This document shows, piece by piece, positions 3-1,036 of a stretch of 21,052 bases of DNA (its first letter is position 1; each line of letters begins with the position of its first letter). The position numbers were made by a program, and so were the translations under genes. This stretch comes from a virus, in IMG/VR virus record IMGVR_UViG_3300048927_000131, positions 1-21,052 of that record, one strand, 5' to 3'. The notes beneath the pieces were generated by a model. That model was not told where the DNA came from. It was given only the letters and a program-made list of their open reading frames with translations, and ran no database searches.

Positions 3-329
3 TCTCTGCTGGCGCTGGTGGCCGTGCTCGTCCTGTTGCTACTGCGCAAATATACCCGGCTGGAGTTTGTTGGTCATGCCCGGCTGCTGCTTAAAACATG
101 GTCCGTCCGCCTGGGCGCTGCCGGCGCGTTGGTCGGTGTATGGGCTCAATCATTCCCGGATGCTGCTCTTCATGCCTGGGCAATGCTGCCGCCGGAGATC
201 AAAGGTATTTTGCCGCCCAACGTTGTGGCGATGATTAGCCCCGCACTGGTAGTTCTCGCCATTCTTTCTCAGTACGTCAGACAGCCAAAGCTGAAAGACA
301 GGGGGGATGAGCAGCAGGAGTCGCAATGA
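3..329 (+). CDS. Holin-like phage membrane protein, 5' end outside window
   Basis: The frame is open from the first in-frame codon at position 3. A GTG at 18 could start a 103-residue product, but it falls inside a hydrophobic segment and has no visible ribosome site, so the true start is probably upstream of the window. Hydrophobic stretches are visible at the N-terminus (LLALVAVLVLLLL), in the middle after KTWSVRLGAAGALVG, and near residues 68-86 (VVAMISPALVVLAILSQYV), followed by a charged hydrophilic tail. The order 'WSVRL..., hydrophobic hairpin, QPKL, charged tail' resembles the DUF7940-type phage holin family. The stop overlaps the next start as ATGA (326-329), so it is co-translated with the spanin genes. 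Role inferred: inner-membrane hole formation at lysis. No endolysin is seen; it may lie upstream. Confidence 0.7.
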   Translation, partial: SLLALVAVLVLLLLRKYTRLEFVGHARLLLKTWSVRLGAAGALVGVWAQSFPDAALHAWAMLPPEIKGILPPNVVAMISPALVVLAILSQYVRQPKLKDRGDEQQESQ

Positions 330-601
330 GCCTTGAATTTATCAGCGGGCTGGTAGTCGTTCTGCTTGGCTTAATCGCTGGCGCGTTTGGGTTAGGTCAC
401 GCCCGCGGAACCAGTAAAGCAGAAGCGAAAGCCAGTCAGCAGCGTACCGAAGAGAATGCGGCCGCCAGCGTCGCCGCGGCAGAACGTAAGGCAGAAGTCA
501 CGAAAGAGGCCAGCAATGTACAGCAGACTGTTAGCCATATGCCTGATGACGATGTTGATCGGGAGCTGCGCGAAAAGTTTACCCGCCCCGGTGGTGGTTG
601 A
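326..601 (+). CDS. Inner-membrane spanin (Rz-like)
   Basis: A 91-residue protein with one N-terminal transmembrane segment (about residues 6-24, GLVVVLLGLIAGAFGLG), then an alanine/lysine/glutamate-rich helix (about 28-70) likely to form a periplasmic coiled coil, and a polar C-terminus. This is the layout of i-spanins, which link the inner membrane to an outer-membrane lipoprotein partner and fuse the membranes in the last lysis step. The start has a CAGGAG ribosome site seven bases upstream and overlaps the holin-like gene by ATGA. The partner gene starts within it in another frame at 516, which is the classic Rz/Rz1 architecture. At 91 residues it is shorter than lambda Rz (153). Function is assigned from topology and context rather than strong family similarity. 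Confidence 0.72.
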   Translation: MSLEFISGLVVVLLGLIAGAFGLGHARGTSKAEAKASQQRTEENAAASVAAAERKAEVTKEASNVQQTVSHMPDDDVDRELREKFTRPGGG

Positions 602-746
602 TACCGCATGTAGTTGGGTGCGGATCATCTATCTGACTGATCACGATATTGACGTTCTCGACCGTCAGACCAAGCGCGACATTCTGGCGCACAACAAATC
701 AGTGCTGGCGAACTGCCCGCAATCAACCGAAAAGGCTATGAAATGA
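516..746 (+). CDS. Outer-membrane spanin lipoprotein (Rz1-like), nested start
   Basis: A 76-residue product starts inside the i-spanin gene in a different frame and runs 145 bases past its end. The ATG at 516 is chosen over the upstream in-frame ATG at 456 because it has an AGAGG ribosome site just before it and gives a lipoprotein signal: MYSR, hydrophobic core LLAICLMTMLI, then the lipobox-like IGSC with the modified cysteine at residue 18. The mature part holds the DTAC...V..IYLTD...LD..T...I..HN......C pattern common in enterobacterial phage Rz1-type proteins, with cysteines at residues 32 and 67 that could form a disulphide. Role: partner of the i-spanin in disrupting the outer membrane. 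Its stop overlaps the next start as ATGA (743-746). Confidence 0.78.
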   Translation: MYSRLLAICLMTMLIGSCAKSLPAPVVVDTACSWVRIIYLTDHDIDVLDRQTKRDILAHNKSVLANCPQSTEKAMK

Positions 747-1036
747 GTGAAGCTAAACCGCAGGACGGCAGCACCGTAAAGGGCTACCGCACATTAACCA
801 CGGGCGACATTGAGCGTATGAACCGCCTTAAAGGCGTCAGCCGCCATTTCTGTAGTTTGCTTGATACCGAGCGAGGTGAATTGTTGGCTGTCCGTAATGG
901 CCCGGCAATGTTAAGCGCTGAGCATGCTCGGGAGATTGATGAAGCTATGCGCAGCCTGTCTATCGCGCGCACCAAAATGCAGGAAGCGTGTATGTGGGCA
1001 TGCCGTGCAGTTGCCCGGCCTGATGCAGATTGCTAA
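743..1036 (+). CDS. acb2-like: Acb2/Tad1-type cyclic-nucleotide sponge (putative anti-CBASS/anti-Thoeris protein)
   Basis: A 97-residue helical protein. Its N-terminal block reads GYRTLT..DIERMN.LK (residues 14-30) and its C-terminal helix reads RSLSIARTKMQEACMWACRAVARP (about 70-93, key residues R70, Q80, W85, R88, P93). This two-block pattern (GYR.L....I..MN..K, then a long helix ending in hydrophobic-RAVA.P) is what I know of the Acb2/Tad1 hairpin domain (formerly DUF7681). In that family a hexamer binds and sequesters cyclic di- and trinucleotides made by CBASS, and Tad1 relatives bind Thoeris cyclic ADP-ribose. The ligand-contacting Tyr and Lys recalled for Acb2 (Y11, K26) are 15 residues apart; Y15 and K30 here have the same spacing. 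The segment between (45-60, RGELLAVRNGPAMLS) appears longer than in short family members. Start: AAGG ribosome site, ATGA coupling to the o-spanin. Ligand range cannot be told from sequence. Confidence 0.75.
   Translation: MSEAKPQDGSTVKGYRTLTTGDIERMNRLKGVSRHFCSLLDTERGELLAVRNGPAMLSAEHAREIDEAMRSLSIARTKMQEACMWACRAVARPDADC

Follow-up and report, generated by a model that had tools for sequence, protein, structure and literature searches.

An Acb2-like gene, predicted to encode a cyclic-oligonucleotide sponge, next to the spanin genes of a prophage

The open reading frame at positions 743-1036 (+) of the prophage DNA analysed here, a separate virus record of 21,052 nucleotides referred to as the window, starts with ATG and codes for a protein of 97 residues that is very probably an Acb2 sponge (probability about 0.93). 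This prediction draws on profile matches, on similarity to solved Acb2 proteins, on the predicted fold, on conserved pocket and interface residues, on purifying selection acting on the gene and on its position. The Acb2 family, whose members sequester the cyclic nucleotides with which bacteria signal phage attack, is already known and the window protein is an ordinary, well-supported member of it. NCBI already labels relatives from E. coli as 'Acb2/Tad1 domain-containing protein', and the nearest named records to the window are phages and prophages of Klebsiella and E. coli. The features referred to below are the following.

18-329 (+), holin-like protein (PHROG 1356, E 3e-31)
326-601 (+), Rz-like inner spanin (PHROG 1026, E 1.9e-31)
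516-746 (+), Rz1-like outer spanin, upstream neighbour (PHROG 1275, E 2e-33)
743-746 (+), ATGA shared by the Rz1 stop and the acb2 start (sequence; recurs in 30 related loci)
743-1036 (+), acb2-like gene, 97 residues, predicted cyclic-oligonucleotide sponge (PF24729, PHROG 717, 7uq2 and p26, fold, dN/dS)
785-787 (+), codon of Y15, equivalent of Vs.4 Y8 and p26 Y11 (alignment; role from PMC10097602)
830-832 (+), codon of K30, equivalent of Vs.4 K23 and p26 K26, predicted cGAMP contact (alignment; role from PMC10097602)
896-916 (+), turn joining the long helices, residues 52-58, inside the 'inner loop' (AlphaFold2 model)
1004-1006 (+), codon of R88, equivalent of Vs.4 R79 and p26 R85, predicted cGAMP contact (alignment; role from PMC10097602)
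1100-2092 (+), terminase small subunit, downstream neighbour (Pfam Terminase_2, E 2.8e-31; PHROG 51, E 4.1e-72)

Family assignment and predicted fold

The initial annotation had proposed an Acb2/Tad1-type protein and named a profile search against the hairpin domain as a check. The Pfam profile Acb2_Tad1_hairpin (PF24729) matches the window ORF significantly (E 3.5e-17), its 62.8 bits being well above the cut-off of 27. The ORF also matches PHROG 717 (E 1.8e-32), the family in which the study of Vs.4, the Acb2 of phage T4, found 198 homologues (PMC10097602). In a phmmer search of PDB sequences, the only significant matches were T4 Vs.4 (7uq2, E 2.1e-8) and p26 (E 5e-6), and the same two best relatives were found by a profile search of the PDB (E 5e-11 for Vs.4 and 1.7e-12 for p26). 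PADLOC and NCBIfam searches gave no match for the window ORF, the family being possibly absent from both libraries, so that this result does not speak against the assignment. The dN/dS ratio, computed on the window and the fetched loci (62 distinct sequences, all equally long), is about 0.06. The ORF is under strong purifying selection, and this low ratio among 62 distinct sequences indicates a functioning protein-coding gene.

The absence of a helical hairpin had been named beforehand as a refuting point. The AlphaFold2 model of the monomer (mean pLDDT 84.7), whose input sequences were taken solely from the window and the fetched loci, is a two-helix hairpin made of helices 20-51 and 59-91, both above 90. 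Confidence is low (pLDDT below 50) at residues 1-6 and 9-12, i.e. in the N-terminal tail adjoining the pocket tyrosine. When this monomer was compared with solved structures by Foldseek, the top matches were Acb2: ranks 1 to 4 are all Acb2 chains (probability 1.00, TM 0.69-0.72), the best being 7uq2 and 8h2x, and the E-value falls off sharply afterwards. The Foldseek E-values are modest (7.5e-4), as can be expected for a simple hairpin.

Ligand pocket, hexamer interface and hairpin turn

In Vs.4, cGAMP is held by Y8, H11, K23, R79 and F82, with Y8 stacking on the ligand, and the hexamer is built through L29, A66, A73 and A77 (PMC10097602). In the alignment, Y8, K23 and R79 correspond to the identical Y15, K30 and R88 of the window protein. 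Its L18 and A91 stand in place of H11 and F82; p26, another cGAMP-binding protein, likewise carries leucine and alanine at these two positions (L14 and A88). The interface residues correspond to F36, A75, A82 and A86, the three alanines being identical. In T4 Acb2, the Y8A substitution abolishes the effect and T68M lowers binding (PMC12657230); T68 aligns with T77 of the window protein. Y15, K30, T77 and R88 are invariant across the 62 distinct sequences. The motifs pointed out in the initial annotation are in place (G14-Y15-R16, M26-N27, K30 and the C-terminal RAVARP at 88-93), and so is the 15-residue spacing that it had pointed to, since Y11 and K26 of p26 (8h2j) align exactly with Y15 and K30. 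Both residues therefore align with solved ligand contacts of Vs.4 and p26, so that the predicted pocket rests, through alignment, on solved structures. Three divergent relatives depart from this pattern in one way or another: the GYR motif is lost in locus L093 and the T77 equivalent in L096 and L098. In a fourth, L097, GY is replaced by YG.

The window protein and Vs.4 share the domain over 84 residues, the pocket Y/K/R and the interface alanines, as well as a similar short size (97 and 88 residues, respectively). They differ in that identity is about one third, the window protein has seven extra N-terminal residues, H11/F82 of Vs.4 are replaced by L18/A91, and the aspartate of T4 is replaced by R70. 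In p26, the Acb2 of a Pseudomonas phage (8h2j, 8ixz), the equivalents of the pocket residues are Y11, K26, R85, L14 and A88, and R67 corresponds to R70; its interface, in contrast, has G72, G79 and I83 at the positions of A75, A82 and A86. We take R67 of p26 to contact cyclic trinucleotides. Judged from the alignment, R70 would thus be a better lead on ligand preference than the length of the turn.

The initial annotation had regarded the inner loop as longer than expected for the family, which does not hold: the turn is of ordinary length compared with solved Acb2 proteins. The Pfam domain spans 79 residues in the window protein versus 77 in a T4-like Vs.4, and between query residues 11 and 95 the window protein is one residue shorter than the p26 chain. 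The turn is longer only than those of compact members, such as HK639 (4 residues shorter) or IME279 (79 residues in total). Insertions at the turn vary between clades, and within the window clade it is conserved (dN/dS 0.08). By sequence, residues 52-58 lie about 20 helix residues from K30, and Y15, K30 and R88 are located toward the opposite end of the hairpin. A different ligand, argued from a longer loop, was accordingly rejected, the solved Acb2 turns being similar and the turn being distant from K30 in sequence; the suggestion that ligand choice may differ on this ground is without support.

Gene neighbourhood and expression

The gene order in the window is holin, Rz, Rz1, acb2-like ORF, small and large terminase subunits, followed by head-tail connecting, capsid, tail and internal virion protein genes. 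The position at the junction of lysis and packaging genes, described at the outset, agrees with the Pfam and PHROG matches of the neighbours. The ATGA overlap suggests that translation of Rz1 and acb2 may be coupled. The four-base overlap is found in 30 fetched loci, and Rz1 lies 66 to 853 bases upstream of acb2 in 22 further loci. Several of the remaining loci contain spanin-like ORFs too divergent for the Rz1 search. In many of the overlapping loci the terminases are dissimilar to that of the window, which indicates that acb2 is linked to lysis and not to packaging. Gene 72 of HK639 (72% identity to the window protein) and the E. coli prophage protein WP_009483898 occupy the same site directly after Rz1 with terminase modules that differ from that of the window. 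The contexts of the two solved relatives are different: vs.4 lies among the small vs genes, whereas the window gene is in a lysis operon, and p26 belongs to another host group and another gene context.

A scan of the coding strand over positions 1-2200 revealed neither promoter-like nor terminator-like sites. The overlap with Rz1 and the position in the lysis operon make late expression of the acb2-like gene likely. A review assigns the action of Acb2 to lysogenic induction, as opposed to maintenance (PMC12043709), which fits with late expression.

Several observations were made in passing on these loci. The acb2-like frame of Pectobacterium phage Amona (L103, 3989-4290) contains an in-frame stop leaving a product of 63 residues and is possibly a decayed copy. 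In another relative (L049, 5001) the start codon is ATA instead of ATG. In Kosakonia phage Kc259 (L102, 420-1211), the Acb2 hairpin domain (residues 180-258) is C-terminal in a protein of 263 residues, whose N-terminal ~170 residues gave no Pfam or PHROG match and were found nowhere else in the phage collection. Inside the terminase small subunit gene of the window, eight TGCGCA palindromes are clustered at positions 1237-1476. The whole window contains 26 of them versus 11.9 expected, and in 13 related loci the terS genes carry the clustered palindromes at identical or almost identical offsets. The cluster is a putative site for packaging or for TerS binding, or else may result from repeated codons that are conserved.

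Alternative readings and proposed function

The Pfam name covers both Acb2 and Tad1, which by this definition share the helical hairpin domain, and a Tad1-type protein mainly sequestering the gcADPR signals of Thoeris has to be considered. In Tad1, a four-stranded N-terminal beta-sheet precedes the two long helices (PMC12043709). Helix 1 of the window protein starts at residue 20, and the 19 residues before it contain no predicted strand and leave no space for such a domain. Moreover, no Tad1 chain was retrieved by sequence from the PDB, even at E 10, and none is present within the 50 best fold matches. Of the initial 'Acb2/Tad1' label, the Acb2 part is thus retained and the Tad1 part dropped, a Tad1-type function being very improbable. 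Equally hard to sustain is the reading of the protein as an accessory factor of the lysis cassette, derived from Acb2, that has lost nucleotide binding. The gene directly follows and overlaps Rz1 in the 30 loci even where the terminase differs, and two features missing from T4 Vs.4, the MSEAKPQDG start of nine residues and the terminal cysteine, hardly vary within the lysis-linked clade, as might be expected of such a factor. However, the same clade shows no variation at the ligand-contact positions of Vs.4 and p26, and relatives with the same pocket occur away from lysis genes, e.g. in IME279, whose copy near recombination genes makes the lysis linkage not universal among relatives.

An Acb2 sponge therefore remains the preferred reading. 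The helical hairpin of 97 residues would most likely form a hexamer, binding CBASS signals between paired protomers: cyclic dinucleotides such as 3'3'-cGAMP and perhaps cyclic trinucleotides too, like Acb2 of the p26 type, which binds both classes (PMC12043709). Held uncut, these signals would be kept from CBASS effectors, which could then not kill the cell. Given its coupling to the lysis genes, the acb2-like gene would probably be expressed late in infection or following prophage induction. A SMODS-type CBASS synthase was found in 2 of the 14 bacterial genomes carrying relatives, i.e. no strong co-occurrence for one synthase family in a small sample.

Three features deserve modest attention: the conserved tail, the terminal cysteine and the linkage to lysis. 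It is a tentative and rather unlikely proposal that the lysis-linked clade represents an Acb2 acting late, to which tail and timing give a distinct role, or one that prefers another ligand than T4 Acb2 does; such a role may be, for example, the damping of a CBASS response triggered late in infection or at prophage induction.

T4 Acb2 also sets off the Panoptes defence (PMC12657218, PMC12657230), so that carriers of the acb2-like gene should be exposed to Panoptes; its mCpol was found in none of the 14 genomes, a small sample. Overall, Acb2 is common among the prophages of enterobacteria, with 394 confirmed stretches in a single virus collection, and often located inside the lysis operon, a placement relevant to the question of when temperate phages must be shielded from CBASS.
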